From assembly GCF_009865385.1 (NCBI RefSeq), contig NZ_WWJT01000204.1:1-64000 (forward strand): 64,000 bases of DNA, read 5' to 3'. The notes beneath the pieces were generated by a model, which saw nothing but the letters and a program-made list of their open reading frames with translations, was not told the origin of the DNA and ran no database searches. Shown here in pieces: positions 3,657 through 35,423 of the stretch. How positions within the stretch are numbered: the stretch's first letter is position 1; every line of letters starts with the position of its first letter. A program made the position numbers and the translations under genes. This DNA comes from Streptomyces sp. SID486. Lineage in GTDB: Bacteria > Actinomycetota > Actinomycetes > Streptomycetales > Streptomycetaceae.

Positions 3657-4169
3657 TTAGCGCTTGCTGTACTGCGGAGCCTTGCGGGCCTTCTTCAGAC
3701 CGGCCTTCTTGCGCTCGACCGCACGGTCGTCGCGCTTGAGGAAGCCGGCCTTCTTCAGCGGGCCGCGGTTGTTGTCGACGTCGGCCTCGTTCAGCGCACG
3801 GGCGACACCGAGACGGAGCGCACCGGCCTGACCGGAGACACCGCCACCCGCGATGCGGGCGATGACGTCGTAACGGCCTTCGAGCTCGAGCACCTTGAAG
3901 GGCTCGTTGACTTCCTGCTGGTGCACCTTGTTCGGGAAGTAGTCCTCGAGGGTGCGACCGTTGATCTTCCACTTGCCGGTGCCCGGGACGATCCGGACAC
4001 GGGCGATGGCGTTCTTGCGACGGCCCAGGCCGGCGGCCGGCTGGGGCTCGCCGAAGCGGGACGCCATCGACTCCGAGGTGTACTCACCCTCGACGGGGAC
4101 CTCGGACTCGGTGGTGTAGCTGTCGATGTCAAGCTCTTCGAGCGGCTGCTCGGCAGTGGTCTCGGCCAC
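3657..4169 (-). CDS. rpsI: 30S ribosomal protein uS9
   Basis: A 170-residue uS9 of the 30S head. The conserved domain starts near residue 47 ([12 protein letters not shown]) and ends in the family tail QYSKR, whose last residues reach the P-site tRNA anticodon region. The first 45 or so residues are an acidic extension rich in Glu, Thr and Ser, absent from the ~130-residue enterobacterial protein; such extensions are usual in actinobacteria. GTG start at 4169. It follows rplM by 42 bases, the standard L13-S9 pair. Confidence 0.97.
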
Positions 4170-8781: not shown

Positions 8782-9980
8782 CACGGCTTCCGGGTGTCGA
8801 AGCCGAAACGGTCGTCGGCGGCCAGGCGCTTGAACTCCTTGAGCGCCAGCGGGCTCGCCTCCAGCCGCCAGTCGGCGCGCTTCTTGTAGTCGAACCAGAT
8901 GAAGCCGAGCATGTCGGCGTCCGCCGTGACGCCCGCGAACAGGTTGCGGACGTCGGCGCGCCGCCGCTCGCCGGGCATGGCGGCGGTCTCCAGCAGCAGC
9001 ATCGGCTTCTTGGTGAAGGTGCGGATCTCGTCCCGGGTCGGCCCGAAGACGCTGTCGAAGGCGTTGTCCTCGCCGGTGGTGAAGTACCCGACGAGGCCGA
9101 CCCAGTCGACGTAGGCGTCACCGGGGTAGTACGGCTTCAGCCGCACGTTCTTGACCGGGTTGACGATGTTGGGCGACCAGGCCCAGATGACGTTGGTGGC
9201 GCCGGCGTCGGCGAAGGTCCGGTGGATGTGCCGCCAGGCGGCCACGTACTGGGTGGGGGTCACGTGCTTCGTGCCCCACTTCTCCCAGTGGCCGTTGAAC
9301 TCGTCCGCGAAGTCGACGACCACGGGCAGGTTCAGCGTGCGGACCGCGGTCGCGTACTCCTTGATGTAGGCGTCGGACCTGCCCGCAGCGATGTCCGCGA
9401 CCGGGGTGTCGAAGGGCTCCCAGGACATCAGCGTCAGGGCGCCCCGGGCCCAGGCGTTGCGCACGCCGGTGGCGTCGAAGCCGTCGCCCCAGGCCGCGTA
9501 GTACTCGACCAGGTTCGGCTGCTTGCCGGTCAGCCTCGTGTACGCGTCGAGGCTCTCCATGGAGGTCGGCGCACCCGGTACGGCCGCGCCGAAGTACTTC
9601 TTCGCGGGCTTGAGCAGGGGGGTGACGTCGTAGGGGGCTTCCGTGGCGCCGTTCGCCGTGGAGTGCGGGCCGGCCGTGCCGCCCGCGGACGCCGGGTCCT
9701 CGTCGTCGCCGAGCAGCGAGCAGCCGCTGAGCGCGAGGACCCCGACCAGAAGGCCGGCCACGGCCGCGCGGACCGTACGGCCCCTGTACCGGGTACGGCA
9801 CGTGTGCGGGACACGGCCCGTATGCGGGGTACCGGCCGTGTGCGGGGCACCGGCCGCGTGCGGGGCACCGGCCGTGTGCGGGGCACCGGCCGCGTGCGGG
9901 GCACCGGCCGCGTGCGGGGCACCGGCCGCGTGCGGGGCACCGGCCGCCAGAAGTGAGCGGAATCGTTCCTTCAGATGCAT
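8781..9980 (-). CDS. GH26-like glycoside hydrolase, predicted lipoprotein
   Basis: A 399-residue protein with a GH26 (endo-beta-mannanase type) fold signature. DEFNGHW places the acid/base at Glu227, where classical GH26 has His before this Glu and here there is Asp. KPMLLLETA gives the nucleophile at Glu331. A lipobox LALSGC puts the lipidated cysteine at residue 87. The 60 residues before the hydrophobic signal core are AGAPHA/AGAPHT repeats, an unusually long n-region. ATG at 9980 shares its A with the TGA of the upstream GT2 gene. No start codon was found nearer the signal core. Probably trims or releases a polysaccharide made by the neighbouring synthase; substrate unknown. Confidence 0.8.
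   Translation of the reverse strand: MHLKERFRSLLAAGAPHAAGAPHAAGAPHAAGAPHTAGAPHAAGAPHTAGTPHTGRVPHTCRTRYRGRTVRAAVAGLLVGVLALSGCSLLGDDEDPASAGGTAGPHSTANGATEAPYDVTPLLKPAKKYFGAAVPGAPTSMESLDAYTRLTGKQPNLVEYYAAWGDGFDATGVRNAWARGALTLMSWEPFDTPVADIAAGRSDAYIKEYATAVRTLNLPVVVDFADEFNGHWEKWGTKHVTPTQYVAAWRHIHRTFADAGATNVIWAWSPNIVNPVKNVRLKPYYPGDAYVDWVGLVGYFTTGEDNAFDSVFGPTRDEIRTFTKKPMLLLETAAMPGERRRADVRNLFAGVTADADMLGFIWFDYKKRADWRLEASPLALKEFKRLAADDRFGFDTRKP
9805..9948 (-). repeat. 18-bp tandem repeat (eight units)
   Basis: Eight 18-bp units (starts 9805, 9823, 9841 ... 9931), the central ones almost identical and based on TGCGGGGCACCGGCCGYG. They encode the hexapeptide AGAPHA/T at the N-terminus of the GH26-like lipoprotein. 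Unit length is a multiple of three, so copy-number change keeps the frame. Confidence 0.9.
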
Positions 9981-11596
9981 CAGACGGCCTCCGCCCCGGA
10001 CCGCGGCTGGACCAGCACGCGTCCGACGACCAGGGCGTAGAACAGCCCGGAGGACAGGATCAGGGCGAAGTCGGGGGCGTGCATGGTGAACGTCCGGTAC
10101 ACCGCCGCGGTGACCCAGACCAGCGCCGTGCCGCCGCTCCAGGCCCACATACCGATCCAGAAGCGCCGCGTCTTGTTCTTCTTGGCGCCGGAGGAACCGG
10201 TCGGCTGCCAGCCCATGCGGTTCTTGCGCAGGATGTCCCAGATGGCGAAGACGTGCGCCCAGCCGTACATCATGCGGGCCGCCCACGCCTCCAGGCGATA
10301 CGGCGCCCTGTGCCACATCGGGAAGATGATCGTGGTGTAGAGGATGCTGGGCAGCACCAGGAGCAGGTGCTCGACCTTGAGCTTCTCCGGCATCGTCAGC
10401 AGCAGCACGATCGGGATGACCGGGGCCGCGAAGGTGAACAGCGCGGTGTGGATGTAGTAGAAGAACCCCGACATGTAGCACAGCCGGCTGGAGAACCTGA
10501 TCTCGCGCTGCCAGAACTTGCGGCTGCCGAGCAGGCTCATCGAGCCCGAGCACCAGCGGTACTGCTGGTTGAAGAAGGCGCCCGCGCTGTCCGGGCAGAC
10601 CCCGGTGGACACCGCGACCGGCACGTACCGCAGGTCCCAGCCGAGCCCGCGCAGATCGAACCCGGTGTGCACGTCCTCGGAGTGCTCGATCAGCGTGGTG
10701 CCGCCGTTGGTCTCCAGGGCCGCCCGCCGGTAGACCGCGCAGGAACCGACGCAGATCGCGCCGTCACTGCTCTGCCGCGCCACCTGGACGGACCGGTAGA
10801 ACAGCTCCTGCACCGCACCCGCCCCGCGCTCGATCCAGTTCTGCGAGTCGAGCACGCGGAAGTACTGCGGGGACTGGACGATGCCGATCCGCGGATCGTC
10901 CGCCATGTAGGGCAGCAGTTCCTCCAGCAGGTCCGCGCGCGGGGTGAAGTCGGCGTCGAGGATCAGGATGAACTCGCCGTCGGACCGCCCGAAGCCGAAG
11001 TGCAGGTTGCCGGCCTTCTTGAACCAGCCCCGGTTCTCCCGGGTGCCGTAGCGGAAGCCGAAGTCGCGGGCCATGGCCTCGAGTCCGGGGTCCGCACCGT
11101 CGTCGAGCACGAACGGGACACAGACGCCCGGGTACCGGTCGGCCATCGCCCGCACGTGCCGCCAGGTGTTGTGCAGGACCTCGATGGGCTCGCCGCACAC
11201 CGGCAGGAACACGTCCACCGTCGGATACGTCTCCGGCCGCCAGTTCGCGACCAGCCGCCGGTGGTGGGCGATGTCGAAGTCCCGGGTGAAGCCGTTGACC
11301 CGCAACGACACCAGGTAGTAGATCACCGTGAACACCAGCAGCGGTGTGTAGATCCACAGCACCGGCGTGGACTGCGCGAGCTTGAACTGACTCAGCACCA
11401 GGCAGCAGAAGCTGACCAGCGAACTGATCGTCAGGATCCACAGATGCCGGTGCGCGTAGGAGTACTTCTCCCTGTCCGACGGCGGGAGCGGCAGCAGCCC
11501 CAGCGCGGCGTTCCCACCGCGCCCGACCCGTCGCCGCCCGCCGCTCTGCCGCACGGCACGTCGCCCCCCGGTCCGCACGGGACCCAATGAAGTCAT
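9980..11596 (-). CDS. Cellulose-synthase-like family 2 glycosyltransferase
   Basis: A 538-residue processive GT2 synthase. All catalytic elements are visible: VLDDG (Asp165-166), the DAD motif (214-216) in LILDADF, the general base in HSEDVHT (Asp308) and QQYRW (344-348). Two membrane helices precede the catalytic domain and about four follow it; no PilZ domain is seen. It should polymerise a beta-linked polysaccharide from a nucleotide sugar and extrude it. First gene of the minus-strand cluster, coupled by TGATG to the GH26-like gene. Distinguishing cellulose from mannan-type or other products is not possible from sequence alone; the GH26 partner hints at a mannose-containing glycan. Confidence 0.88.
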   Translation of the reverse strand: MTSLGPVRTGGRRAVRQSGGRRRVGRGGNAALGLLPLPPSDREKYSYAHRHLWILTISSLVSFCCLVLSQFKLAQSTPVLWIYTPLLVFTVIYYLVSLRVNGFTRDFDIAHHRRLVANWRPETYPTVDVFLPVCGEPIEVLHNTWRHVRAMADRYPGVCVPFVLDDGADPGLEAMARDFGFRYGTRENRGWFKKAGNLHFGFGRSDGEFILILDADFTPRADLLEELLPYMADDPRIGIVQSPQYFRVLDSQNWIERGAGAVQELFYRSVQVARQSSDGAICVGSCAVYRRAALETNGGTTLIEHSEDVHTGFDLRGLGWDLRYVPVAVSTGVCPDSAGAFFNQQYRWCSGSMSLLGSRKFWQREIRFSSRLCYMSGFFYYIHTALFTFAAPVIPIVLLLTMPEKLKVEHLLLVLPSILYTTIIFPMWHRAPYRLEAWAARMMYGWAHVFAIWDILRKNRMGWQPTGSSGAKKNKTRRFWIGMWAWSGGTALVWVTAAVYRTFTMHAPDFALILSSGLFYALVVGRVLVQPRSGAEAV

Positions 11597-30731: not shown

Positions 30732-32966
30732 TCAGCGATCGGCGCGCAGGGTGCTCAGGGTGCGGTCACGGCCGTGTTCGTAGTCGTTCTGCCCGGCATG
30801 GACGTAGTACTTCGTCCAGTCGCTGTCGACGGTGTGGCCGCGGCTGTCCGCCCACGCCCTGACCAGCTTCTCGACGTCGTGCTGGCCGGCGTCGTAGGTC
30901 TTGGCGTTCGCTTCGGTGGCGGCGAGGTTCGCCTCGGCGACATGCTCCTTGTTCGACTCGTACGACCACACGTCGAGGGTCTTGGAGGCGAGGTCGCCGA
31001 CGGGGCTGAGGTCCGAGACGGGGTTGAACATCAGTGCCGTGCTGAGGGACGTGCCGAGCCCGTGGTTGAAGTCGGCGGCCCACTGCGTCTTCTTGAACCG
31101 CTCGTCGTAGATGATGTCCGACCGGATGCCGTCGTAGGCGCCCATGGCCCGGGAGGACTCCACGATGCGGTCGTGGATCGTCTTCTCGCCGGCGTCCGCG
31201 GGGACCCCGTCCAGGACGTGGTGGGCGTACTGCTGCTCGGCCCCGTAGAGGTGGCCGAACGCCTCCGGGTCGTTGGCGACGCCGCGCATGACCGCCGCGA
31301 GACGCTGGTGCCCCACCGCCAGGTGCGCCCCGTCCTTGTCGGACCAGACCGACCCCTCGCTGTCCCAGTCGATGGCGTACTTCGACGAGGACTCCGCGTA
31401 GATCTCATGGGTGTCGGGCGTGTACGACGTCAGGATGTGGGCCATCGGCGCGACCAGGTTCTTGGGCAGGTCCTGGGCGTGCTTGTCGGTGTACAGCGTG
31501 TTGATCGTGTGCTGCAGGATGCGGGCCTGCGGTTCGCTGTGCTGTCCGACCGGGTGGTAGTCGCCCGGTGCCTGGCCGGTCGTGGCGGCCTCCAGGGCGG
31601 CGCCGAAGCCATTGCGGACGTCGCCGTCCTCCGCCAGGACGGGGATGCCGACCGTGGTACCCCCGGGCGGGGTGGCGTAGTGGTCCACGACGGTGTCCCA
31701 GTTCCGCTCGTGGAGCAGGTACTGGAGGTTGTCGTTGTGGGCCGGGTCCAGGTAGTCGGTGCTGAGCTTGGGGTCCTGGGACATGATGCCGAGCACGCCG
31801 TCGAGCGGGTCGTTGGCGAACCAGCCCCGGTCCTTGCCGCTGAACTGGTCCCGCAGGCCCCAGATGGACTCGGTCGGGTTGCCGTCCTCGGGCACGTACG
31901 ACTGCTCGGCGTGCCGGATGTCGTCCGCGGTGTCCTTGAGGAACTGCCCGGAGTAGCCGTGGCCCTGCTGCATCAGCGTGACCAGGCTCTGGTAGCCGCG
32001 GACCTTCTCGTCCGGGATGGGGCTCAGGCCGTCGACCTTGAACTGCTCGGTGCCGGCCTTCCGCATGTCCGCGCGGAAGTTCTTGTAGAAGTCCGAGTCC
32101 GGGTCCTTCGTCGCGGTCGCGAGGGTGGTGGCCAGGCCCTTCTGGATGTCCAGATACTGGCCGCCGTGCTCCTTGTCCCCGTGGTAGGCGAGACCGTCGA
32201 GGCTGTTGGAGAGCTGCAGCGTGCCCTTGGCGCCCAGTTCGTCCAGCAGGGTCTGGCTGAACGCCGTGTCACCGGAGTTGTCGTGGAAGAGCCGCTGCAG
32301 TTCCTTGTAGTCGCCCGTACTCGCCTTGCCGGCGTTGACGCGCGTGGCGATGTCCTTGGCCTCGTCCGCTTCGTACTTCTCGATGTCGCCCTGAGCCTTG
32401 CCGTTGAACCCGTTCAGGGTGCCGTCGCCGGTGTCGGAGTCGACGGTCACGGCCTTGAAGGCGATCTCGACGCCGCTGTCGGCGTCGTCCACGTCCTTCA
32501 CGCACTGGTCGATACGCGCCTGCCAGGAGGCGACGGCGGTACGGATGCTCTGCTGGTAGTCCGGGTCGTGGGCCAGCGCCTGGCGGTCGCCCTGGGTGAG
32601 CTTGGTGGTGTCGTAGGAGACCACGCCCTGGTCCGACACCTTCATGCCCGCCTCGACGGCGTCGTCCCGGGCCGACTCCAGCTTCTTGCGCAGGTCCACG
32701 AACTGGGTGTGCGCGTCCCGAAGCAGCGAGGCGATGGCCTTGGCCTCGGTCTGGGCCTTCTGGAACTCCTTGAGAGTCCAGCCGAGGCGCTGCTGAGCGA
32801 CGTCACCGCTGAATCCCTGCCAGGTCGGGCCGAGGGTGATGCCGTGCACATCCGTCGAGTACGCCGTCTCCTGTGTGTGGAACTCCTTCGCCATCCCGTC
32901 CCAGCGGTCGGCTGCCGTGGTGAGCGTGGACAGGTCGGTGGTCGTGATCTCGTGGTACGTCGGCAT
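30732..32966 (-). CDS. Large WXG-type (DUF6571-like) protein, possible ESX/type VII substrate
   Basis: A 744-residue, mostly helical protein. Residues 1-110 resemble a WXG100 helical hairpin with WQG at 49-51 (GPTWQGFSGDVAQ), the turn typical of ESX/type VII secreted proteins. The long remainder resembles DUF6571-type proteins of streptomycetes; no toxin catalytic motif is recognised. There is no signal peptide or transmembrane helix, which agrees with a non-Sec route. ATG at 32966. It follows the small gene at 33013 by 46 bases and precedes the membrane protein gene by 26, so the three look like one operon. The match to DUF6571 is from memory and needs a profile search. Confidence 0.7.
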   Translation of the reverse strand: MPTYHEITTTDLSTLTTAADRWDGMAKEFHTQETAYSTDVHGITLGPTWQGFSGDVAQQRLGWTLKEFQKAQTEAKAIASLLRDAHTQFVDLRKKLESARDDAVEAGMKVSDQGVVSYDTTKLTQGDRQALAHDPDYQQSIRTAVASWQARIDQCVKDVDDADSGVEIAFKAVTVDSDTGDGTLNGFNGKAQGDIEKYEADEAKDIATRVNAGKASTGDYKELQRLFHDNSGDTAFSQTLLDELGAKGTLQLSNSLDGLAYHGDKEHGGQYLDIQKGLATTLATATKDPDSDFYKNFRADMRKAGTEQFKVDGLSPIPDEKVRGYQSLVTLMQQGHGYSGQFLKDTADDIRHAEQSYVPEDGNPTESIWGLRDQFSGKDRGWFANDPLDGVLGIMSQDPKLSTDYLDPAHNDNLQYLLHERNWDTVVDHYATPPGGTTVGIPVLAEDGDVRNGFGAALEAATTGQAPGDYHPVGQHSEPQARILQHTINTLYTDKHAQDLPKNLVAPMAHILTSYTPDTHEIYAESSSKYAIDWDSEGSVWSDKDGAHLAVGHQRLAAVMRGVANDPEAFGHLYGAEQQYAHHVLDGVPADAGEKTIHDRIVESSRAMGAYDGIRSDIIYDERFKKTQWAADFNHGLGTSLSTALMFNPVSDLSPVGDLASKTLDVWSYESNKEHVAEANLAATEANAKTYDAGQHDVEKLVRAWADSRGHTVDSDWTKYYVHAGQNDYEHGRDRTLSTLRADR

Positions 32967-33607: not shown

Positions 33608-33859
33608 CTAACGCCGAGAGGCGTACCTGACGAAGCCGGCCCAGGCGGTCGGGGTGACGGCGAGGCGGGGGCCCTCGGGGTTCTTGGAGTCGCGGATGTG
33701 GATGGTGGTGGAGGTGGGGGCGACTTCGAGGCAGTCATTGCCGTTACTGCTGTCGCTGTAACTGCTTTTGAACCAGTGGAGCGCGACTTCGAGGCAAGAG
33801 CCGGGTTCGCCGCTGTCGCTGTAGCTGCTTTTGAACCAGTGCAGGTCCGCGATGCTCAT
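33608..33859 (-). CDS. DUF397 protein with duplicated N-terminal motif
   Basis: An 83-residue DUF397 protein. Such small proteins usually pair with an Xre/DUF5753 regulator in streptomycete regulatory or toxin-antitoxin-like modules. The motif LHWFKSSYSDS occurs twice, at residues 7-17 and 27-37, through an in-frame 60-base duplication, so the N-terminal half is doubled. The C-terminal part (IHIRDSKNPEGPRLAVTP) is normal. It overlaps by four bases the truncated DUF5753 remnant at 33856, its former partner, and may now lack a promoter. Confidence 0.85.
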   Translation of the reverse strand: MSIADLHWFKSSYSDSGEPGSCLEVALHWFKSSYSDSSNGNDCLEVAPTSTTIHIRDSKNPEGPRLAVTPTAWAGFVRYASRR

Positions 33860-34131
33860 AGTCTCCCCAGCGCTGTCTCGATGAAGGCCTGTGACTCCCT
33901 CGGGGTGAGAGCCTGCGCCCGGATCGTGCCATAGCGGAGTTCAAGGATCCGGAGCTCCTTTGGACTGGAGACCGGGCGGCCGTTGAACGCACCATCAGAG
34001 CGCCCGATCGAGGTGCCATCAGCGAACTTCAGCACCCGAATTTCTCCCTGTGTTCCGGCGTGCTCCTCCAGCGCGGTCGGCATGACCTGGAGCGTGACGT
34101 TCCTCAACCGCGCCACCTCCAGCAGGTGTTC
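33856..34131 (-). pseudogene. DUF5753/Xre regulator, 3' fragment
   Basis: Only about 90 C-terminal residues remain (EHLLEVARLRNVTLQVMP ... RAQALTPRESQAFIET), the end of the DUF5753 domain; a full protein has about 280 residues with an N-terminal helix-turn-helix. Homology stops near 34131, exactly where the remnant of an oppositely oriented ATPase gene begins. A GTG at 34116 opens a frame of 86 codons but is not a credible start for this family. Confidence 0.75.
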
Positions 34132-34289
34132 GCATCGAGGTCACCGACACGCGCGGTGACCGACTGCCCCGGCTCACCACTCCGGCCGAGGACGGTGAAT
34201 CAGGCCGCGGCCTGCTGCTCGTGGCGGCCCTCGCCGACCGCTGGGGCGTCGCCGAGGGACGGCACCCGCGCAAGACCGTCTGGGCGTAG
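34125..34289 (+). pseudogene. RsbW-like ATP-binding protein, 3' fragment
   Basis: Plus-strand frame from 34125 reading VRIEVTDTRGD, then ESGRGLLLVAALADRWGV and KTVWA with TAG at 34287-34289. This is the C-terminal G2-box part of the HATPase_c_2 / anti-sigma-like kinases common in Streptomyces. The N-terminal two thirds and any start codon are missing. The fragment abuts the DUF5753 fragment tail to tail across a deletion that removed both promoters. Confidence 0.75.
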
Positions 34290-34442
34290 GTGAGCACCGC
34301 CCCACCGCATCGCGGTCCATCCCGCCCCGGTGACCGACGCCCCGCCCATGGGCGAGGTCGGTACTTCCCATGACCGGGTCGGGGAGAGAACCGACGCACC
34401 CGACCCCTCCAGCCCCCCACGGCCGCGCGCACCGGAGTCCGG

Positions 34443-34913
34443 TCACCCGGTGGCCAGGCGGCGCCGAAGCTCCTCCTGCGGGACGTCTTCCACGTGGGCC
34501 AGGAACACCCACAGGTGACCTGAAGGGCCCTTGAGGATGACGGTGCGGTCACCGTGGAACATGTCCTTCGGCGGCTGGAGGATCTCAGCGCCGGCGGCTT
34601 CCGCGCGCTCCGCCAGGCTGTCGACGTCCGGCACGAAGACATGCAGCGTCACGGACGTACCTCCGCCGAGCGAGGTCGGCGGGGCGAGGGAGGCGGCCGC
34701 CGCCGCGTCGCCCAACATCAGGGCCGACCGTCCGATGGTGATCTCGGCGTGCAGGATCCCGCCGCCCGGAGCGTCGATCCTGAAGTCCTCACGGGCGCCG
34801 AACGCCCGCTGGTAGAAATCGATCGCCACGGCGTCGTCGTCGACCATGATGTGCGGGATCACGGCATAGCGGTAGCGGTCGGGGATCTCGATGTGGTCTG
34901 TGCGCTCGGTCAC
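34443..34913 (-). CDS. VOC-superfamily (glyoxalase/PhnB-like) protein
   Basis: A 156-residue protein of the vicinal-oxygen-chelate fold with two beta-alpha-beta-beta-beta modules: VIPHIMVDDDAVAIDFYQRAFGA at residues 18-40 and VTLHVFVPDVDSLAERAEAAGA further on, ending in GPSGHLWVFLAHVEDV. Members include glyoxalases, dioxygenases and resistance proteins; the substrate cannot be told. GTG at 34913 follows GGGAGG seven bases upstream. It sits among decayed genes but is intact. Its start overlaps by four bases the terminal codons of the GH115 remnant frame. Confidence 0.85.
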   Translation of the reverse strand: MTERTDHIEIPDRYRYAVIPHIMVDDDAVAIDFYQRAFGAREDFRIDAPGGGILHAEITIGRSALMLGDAAAAASLAPPTSLGGGTSVTLHVFVPDVDSLAERAEAAGAEILQPPKDMFHGDRTVILKGPSGHLWVFLAHVEDVPQEELRRRLATG

Positions 34914-35215
34914 GGCGGACCTCCCTGAAAAGGCAAGCGGCCGAGCGTGTCGCCCGAGGGGACCCCTGTCACCCGTTCGAGGTCGTCCCGCAGATCCCCC
35001 GCCACGCGTACCACTCCGGGGTGATCCTCCCGGCTCACCACCACGGGCGCGCCCACGAGGGAGAACGCCCCACCCGAGAAGGAGACGTACGCCCCGGGCT
35101 CCGTCACCCGGAGGCCGCCCCCACCGCCCCCCTACGCGGTCCCCGAGGCCCCGGCGGCCAGCACCGGTACGGCGGCGAGCCCCGCCCCCAGCACCGCCCT
35201 GCGCTCCACGGACAT
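34910..35215 (-). pseudogene. GH115-type glycoside hydrolase, N-terminal remnant
   Basis: ATG at 35215, preceded by GGGAGGGG, opens a signal-peptide-like start ([20 protein letters not shown]), interrupted by an in-frame TAG after 27 codons. The same frame then reads [20 protein letters not shown] and HPGVVRVAGDLRDDLERVTG, as in the N-terminus of GH115 alpha-glucuronidase-type enzymes, which normally run to 800-1000 residues. Homology ends after about 80 residues, so most of the gene is deleted. Assignment to GH115 is from motif memory. Confidence 0.6.
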
Positions 35216-35356
35216 ACGACCCCTCCCGGTCCGTCACCGCCACTGCCCATGCCACCCCGATTTTGTTCAGAGCATGACAAATAGAGGAGGGAGCCGGCGG
35301 CGGAGGGAACGGGTCGTGGGCGCCGAACAGTTTCGAAGGACCGGGACATGCAGAAG

Positions 35357-35386
35357 AGGCCCGTACGACCGGAGTCGTACGGGCCT
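35357..35386 (-). terminator. Terminator of the str operon (after tuf)
   Basis: Perfect 13-base arms AGGCCCGTACGAC / GTCGTACGGGCCT (35357-35369, 35374-35386) with a CGGA loop, 38 bases beyond the tuf stop. Followed by CTTCT on the minus strand. Confidence 0.8.
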
Positions 35387-35423
35387 CCCCTTAGGTCAGG
35401 CAGTGACCCTCAAGCAAGCGAAC

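Follow-up and report, generated by a model that had tools for sequence, protein, structure and literature searches.

Known modules of the abaA-whiJ-bldB type

Modules made of abaA, whiJ and bldB paralogues, encoding proteins of the HATPase_c, XRE and DUF397 families, are described in Streptomyces venezuelae (PMC10294661). According to the same source, WhiJ9 binds three direct repeats in the iosA-whiJ9 region. In S. coelicolor, strains that have lost SCO4677, which codes for a predicted anti-sigma factor, are affected in sporulation and in antibiotic production (PMC3896431); development and actinorhodin production are reported to change when SCO4678/79 are overexpressed or deleted (PMC10364602). 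A type II toxin-antitoxin nature has been proposed for XRE/DUF397 pairs; in PMC10364602, no clear toxicity was seen with 14 DUF397 proteins. According to PMC4239341, variation within a species is unusually rapid in the bldB and hpb genes.

The sequence analysed here, called the window, is a stretch of 64,000 nucleotides from Streptomyces sp. SID486 (genome G000, contig C132) and consists of Streptomyces DNA beside tuf/fusA. It very probably holds a degraded module of the abaA-whiJ-bldB type, in which one 961-bp deletion has fused two C-terminal stumps and spared the DUF397 gene (Table 1). The same three families are present as in the S. venezuelae modules, but the starts of both regulators and the repeats are deleted, and DUF397 alone is whole. 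As regards the toxin-antitoxin proposal, DUF397 persists here although the locus has no intact XRE gene to pair with it.

The tuf-linked position fits the numbering of SCO4677-SCO4679, tuf1 being SCO4662. Judged by this position and by domain layout, the copy is probably the counterpart of that S. coelicolor module: the XRE protein of the intact S. tricolor homologue has 281 amino acids with DUF5753 at 99-276, as compared to 282 and 100-277 for SCO4678 (PMC10364602). The S. coelicolor module is intact, and its SCO4679 has 63 amino acids, as opposed to 83 for the DUF397 protein of the window.

Architecture of the degraded locus

Leftward from tuf, the locus comprises a hairpin, a GH115 stump, a glyoxalase gene, the ATPase stump on the plus strand, and the DUF5753 stump and DUF397 gene on the minus strand. 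Its left border is a gene pair encoding proteins of 146 and 744 amino acids.

Table 1. Features of the tuf-linked locus in the window and of comparable scars in five other Streptomyces genomes (ATPase and XRE residue numbers in the scars follow the best query of each)
Feature	Position	Strand	Evidence or extent
DUF397 (BldB-paralogue) gene, intact, 83 aa	33608-33859	-	PF04149, E 2.2e-29, two stretches
XRE-DUF5753 (WhiJ-like) C-terminal remnant	33856-34132	-	PF19054, E 7e-16; S. tricolor alignment
Deletion joint	34131-34132		961 bp of S. tricolor absent; 2-bp (CG) block overlap
HATPase_c (AbaA/SCO4677-like anti-sigma) C-terminal remnant, from about codon 81	34131-34289	+	alignments to L033 and G672
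Probable original sequence 3' of the ATPase gene	34290-34347		window 34228-34347 against G024 (L131), 75%
Glyoxalase-family gene, intact	34443-34928	-	PF00903, 1e-16
GH115 N-terminal remnant	34919-35218	-	residues 8-103 of 1018, one in-frame TAG; DNA homology from 34932
Second joint, glyoxalase segment/GH115 remnant	34932-34935		about 4 bp overlap
Strong hairpin 3' of tuf	35352-35391	-	-40.2 kcal/mol, z -5.54
tuf	35424 upward	-	right border of the locus
Scar in G024			ATPase 102-129 beside XRE 215-280; DNA blocks 8 bp apart; DUF397 intact
Scar in G013			ATPase 24-121, XRE 83-163; DUF397 partial
Scar in G140			ATPase from about 88 to end in two frames, XRE 13-206; DUF397 not detected
Scar in G056			ATPase 47-131 against DUF397 (partial); no XRE piece
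Scar in G020			ATPase 101-134 against DUF397 (partial); no XRE piece

The XRE stump matches the S. tricolor homologue from about codon 190 to codon 281, with 87% protein identity (188-281 of 281), and covers positions 93-177 of the 178 in the PF19054 profile. Its N-terminal HTH is absent, while the S. tricolor homologue has both the HTH and DUF5753. The frame extends over 94 codons from stop to stop, and the open reading frame listed within it starts at a GTG at 34116 and is open for 86 codons. As compared to S. tricolor, 28 codons differ, 19 of them synonymously and nine non-synonymously, and two of these nine amino-acid changes are unseen among 19 homologues (S. tricolor included). Since the differences are mostly synonymous and so few replacements are unseen in homologues, most of this divergence would seem to have arisen before the loss, when the gene was still intact.

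The ATPase stump keeps the last 52-53 residues and ends with a TAG at 34287-34289. A Pfam profile search calls no domain in this 52-amino-acid piece; it is identified by its alignment with S. tricolor (92% DNA identity over 163 bases), whose homologue has HATPase_c_2 at 20-124, and with 19 intact or nearly intact ATPases. At the position of the TAG, 18 of the 19 compared genes go on with AEV, AEI, AEL or AEC, and the remaining one (L003) stops two residues further on, in a different way. The earliest in-frame start codon is a late GTG, within LLLV, that leaves 22 codons. A fusion gene is ruled out, the stumps lying on opposite strands and the DUF5753 frame being confined between its two stops.

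The survival of DUF397, asserted in the preliminary description, holds, and the ATG of this gene overlaps the DUF5753 stop. The accompanying claim that it has lost its upstream promoter is not established: the promoter of a DUF397 homologue has been reported to sit inside its whiJ gene, and XRE codons 190-281 are still upstream of DUF397 in the window. Neither synonymous-site identity nor a sigma-70 scan gives a positive internal-promoter signal in the retained XRE part. The scan upstream of DUF397 returns no site (0.1 expected), with a model that says little for Streptomyces; synonymous-site codon identity in 20-codon windows is an unremarkable 0.61-0.70 over codons 191-270 and peaks at 0.745 in codons 261-280, adjoining the DUF397 start. 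The N-terminal motif of the DUF397 protein is duplicated (LHWFKSSYSDS twice), and two-part DUF397 matches are also listed for certain S. coelicolor proteins (PMC10364602).

A single 961-bp deletion relative to S. tricolor

A search with the protein of the adjoining 744-amino-acid gene yields 47 named loci. One of these, L033 of Streptomyces tricolor NRRL B-16925, harbors intact and divergent ATPase and XRE-DUF5753 genes, followed by DUF397 and the two neighbours. The window matches it in two blocks, 33783-34132 (350 bp, 89% identity) and 34131-34293 (92%), on the same strands and separated by a single clean gap of 961 bp (L033 260-1220). The preliminary description had two C-terminal parts meeting at 34117-34131 with neither 5' end present, through one internal deletion that took both starts. 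The meeting of the parts is confirmed with a joint slightly further right, the missing segment is found in the intact relative, and the gap fits a single deletion exactly, so that the core interpretation as a deletion scar is supported.

With gene starts as matched, the missing 961 bp divide into 242 bp of ATPase, 569 bp of XRE and, between the two, 150 bp of intergenic DNA. Relative to S. tricolor, the deletion has removed ATPase codons 1-80 and part of 81, the shared control region between the divergent genes and XRE codons 1-189 and part of 190. We infer that the joining was illegitimate, because the blocks overlap by 2 bp and no long repeat occurs at the joint. A repeat-mediated deletion was rejected on comparison of the block ends, which share those 2 bp alone.

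A second comparison is provided by G672, where 960 bp separate the corresponding blocks and the module is likewise located past tuf and GH115. Chance juxtaposition of the two stumps is excluded by these alignments, because the same blocks occur on the same strands in S. tricolor, with 961 bp more between them, and 960 bp apart in G672. S. tricolor is about 10% diverged from the window at the locus, while G672 shows 94% identity at the ATPase end and 78% over DUF5753-DUF397. Since G672 is closer than S. tricolor at the ATPase end yet farther at DUF5753-DUF397, the locus appears to be a mosaic and the ancestral sequence at the joint is uncertain.

The own genome matches the missing piece only with paralogous modules at 69% (C179, C507) and with three stretches of 37-66 bp at 82-86%; a translocated copy of the missing part was not found. 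The locus is therefore collinear with an intact relative apart from one gap whose content has no more than these matches elsewhere in the genome, as expected of a deletion pseudogene.

The preliminary description also held that the ATPase and XRE genes are usually divergent. This is true of every one of 44 loci, representing 35 distinct XRE sequences, in which long tblastn matches to the two genes lie 116-261 bp apart; the loci had been selected for their similarity to the module or to genes adjoining it, and none of the 44 is an intact non-divergent locus. Relatives sharing the short genes were sought with a 120-bp query centred on the joint (at 60/61), taking the two best candidates per genome in two overlapping draws that included the own genome. 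In the first draw, 73 of 392 Streptomyces genomes matched the query (E <= 1e-10) and none but the own genome spans the joint; among the matches listed, those of other genomes end at 55-61 or begin at 58-60. In the second, four of 394 family genomes matched (1e-16), again with the own genome alone spanning the joint. Of 131 genomes, G096 (L133) resembles the window most in the tuf-fusA stretch (98%), and it has no module piece within 16 kb of tuf. Among the genomes compared, none is a conspecific strain in which the locus is intact.

Both stumps are presumably non-functional, since they have lost the DNA-binding domain, the front of the ATPase domain, their two starts and the conserved repeats between the genes. 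This would make the strain a natural double null for the anti-sigma-like and WhiJ-like partners of this module, while paralogous modules remain. The probable S. coelicolor counterparts of the two genes affect sporulation and antibiotic production.

Comparable scars at the tuf-linked site

A survey of the tuf-linked site was based on 131 drawn genomes, 116 of which matched, the own genome included; 89 of the other 115 were examined and 26 were left out. Eighty stretches were newly taken and nine, all in the draw, had been chosen earlier by matching prior queries. The stretches reach 10-14 kb beyond tuf for these nine and 16 kb for the others, except L207 (5.6 kb). The pair is intact in 16 genomes, in two of them at 12-15 kb from tuf (L152, L153); three genomes have a full XRE without a full ATPase, ten a partial module or the ATPase alone, and two DUF397 alone. 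No module piece is detected within reach in the remaining 58.

Five of the 89 genomes carry central scars comparable to that of the window, defined by an ATPase C-side piece at most 40 bp from, or overlapping in tblastn coordinates, an XRE/DUF397 piece (Table 1). This is the new observation of the present work; a limited literature search found no report on whiJ/abaA pseudogenes in Streptomyces. As in the window, the control region is lost in all five, but the breakpoints differ, so that the five look like independent losses. The presence of such scars, differently delimited, in other species suggests repeated and largely neutral loss of the module at a variable chromosomal site. Pieces with the ATPase C-terminus are more frequent than pieces with its N-terminus, a descriptive count from which no inference is drawn. 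A scar identified by its two flanking pieces lacks the centre by definition, and the pattern is thus partly one of detection.

Several partial loci were not counted as scars: L158 has a nearly whole ATPase alone (55%), L181 a weak XRE piece (51%), L155 ATPase 99-129 alone, L206 XRE 218-274 with DUF397 and no ATPase, and L139 an internal XRE deletion. L107 (G366), with XRE 179-266 adjoining a DUF397 piece, is outside the survey. Together, these comparable losses make it possible to ask which module parts go, and in what order.

Duplications and further decay are also seen in other genomes. L175 (G086) was rejected as an ATPase scar, because its extra piece (9103-9276) is an inverted copy of a segment of the intact gene there (9999-10385), from which it lies about 0.7 kb away; the copy covers ATPase residues 70-127 and is 100% identical at the protein level. 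In L179 (G019), three consecutive DUF397 matches follow one XRE gene at 8123-8753 bp beyond tuf. L096 (G003) harbors at 3765-4159 a second decayed module copy, in which pieces of ATPase 1-83 and XRE 210-233 adjoin.

Origin of the scar

Ordinary repeated gene decay is most likely the process at work, and no new mechanism is shown. A selected removal of the centre of the module is an unlikely alternative origin. It supposes that the loss of a single regulator does harm through mis-expression of the ATPase, that the deletions which survive are therefore those removing the shared operator along with both starts, and that DUF397 remains switched on and affects BldB by forming hetero-oligomers. The joining of an ATPase C-side piece to an XRE/DUF397 piece in the window and in five of the 89 genomes is what this would produce. 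PMC10294661 adds, for S. venezuelae, that BldB loss strongly raises abaA paralogues, that abaA6 overexpression gives a white, sporulation-deficient phenotype, and that BldB binds several paralogues in two-hybrid assays. However, four of six genes overexpressed in S. venezuelae are reported to give no obvious effect. Single-gene losses also exist at the tuf-linked site: the ATPase is nearly complete in G042, which has an internal deletion in XRE only, and G123, G043 and G100 lack the ATPase while keeping full XRE and DUF397. Moreover, the detection bias noted above applies to this very pattern. The fuller form of the idea is quite unlikely: a tuf-linked switch would be repeatedly disarmed through simultaneous deletion of its operator and both regulator starts, since the loss of one regulator mis-sets the ATPase and blocks development, with DUF397 expressed from a promoter in the XRE stump and acting via BldB-family hetero-oligomers.

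The assembly is a draft of 809 contigs with an estimated contamination of 6.42%, and the genome contains several paralogous modules. An intact locus in the living strain, hidden by the collapse of paralogous or repeated sequence during assembly, is nonetheless very improbable: the joint lies within a contig and has no long repeat, the missing segment has only the distant or short matches given above elsewhere in the assembly, and comparable scars with other breakpoints occur in further assemblies, including the single-contig genomes G140, G056 and G013. Finally, that the two short frames are new functional genes with conserved starts can be practically dismissed, for although the DUF5753 frame is open and differs from S. 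tricolor mostly at synonymous sites, no other genome in either draw spans the joint, the ATPase piece has only its late GTG, and neither the HTH nor the front part of the ATPase domain is left.

Direct repeats in the intergenic region of relatives

Intact relatives of the module resemble iosA-whiJ9 as described in PMC10294661 in having direct repeats in the intergenic region. Alignment of the intergenic regions of 13 relatives reveals these repeats directly 5' of the XRE start, the best cases reading TTGTCTCG-GCTGTCTCG-GCTGTC, as at L033 588-608 and L123 10422-10442. The repeats differ from the WhiJ9 consensus CGXXCTCAAC published in PMC10294661, and the likeness is one of place and form. The pattern is found in 13 of 212 loci (nine distinct places), always within the ATPase-XRE gap; in its exact form it matches 12 of the 44 two-gene loci, the kind of loci from which it was derived. 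A first trial pattern gave no matches. The repeats thus form a possible operator, and those of close relatives are flagged as candidates for this role.

The window contains no match to the pattern with up to three mismatches allowed, and the own genome contains none. This latter absence is partly expected, because the intact paralogue on C179 also lacks the repeats.

Flanking genes

The hairpin 3' of tuf is probably the tuf terminator and, if so, would restrict read-through to the remnants. Apart from the remnant beside it, the own genome shows no GH115 match; in 11 of the 89 surveyed genomes, the region beyond tuf contains a GH115 gene (PF15979, E 5e-130 in L102). None of the 89 stretches examined beyond tuf gave a match to the glyoxalase gene that follows. 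Its matches in other Streptomyces, with the two best candidates taken per genome, span only about window positions 34415-34935, and one match is reported in the own genome, where two candidates were scored. By these comparisons the gene appears displaced, in an unusual place, and a third joint probably exists near 34350-34415. At the left border, the 744-amino-acid protein (30732-32966), preceded by the 146-amino-acid gene, shows a weak N-terminal WXG100 match below the cutoff (E 0.0024), and the pair is possibly related to type VII secretion.
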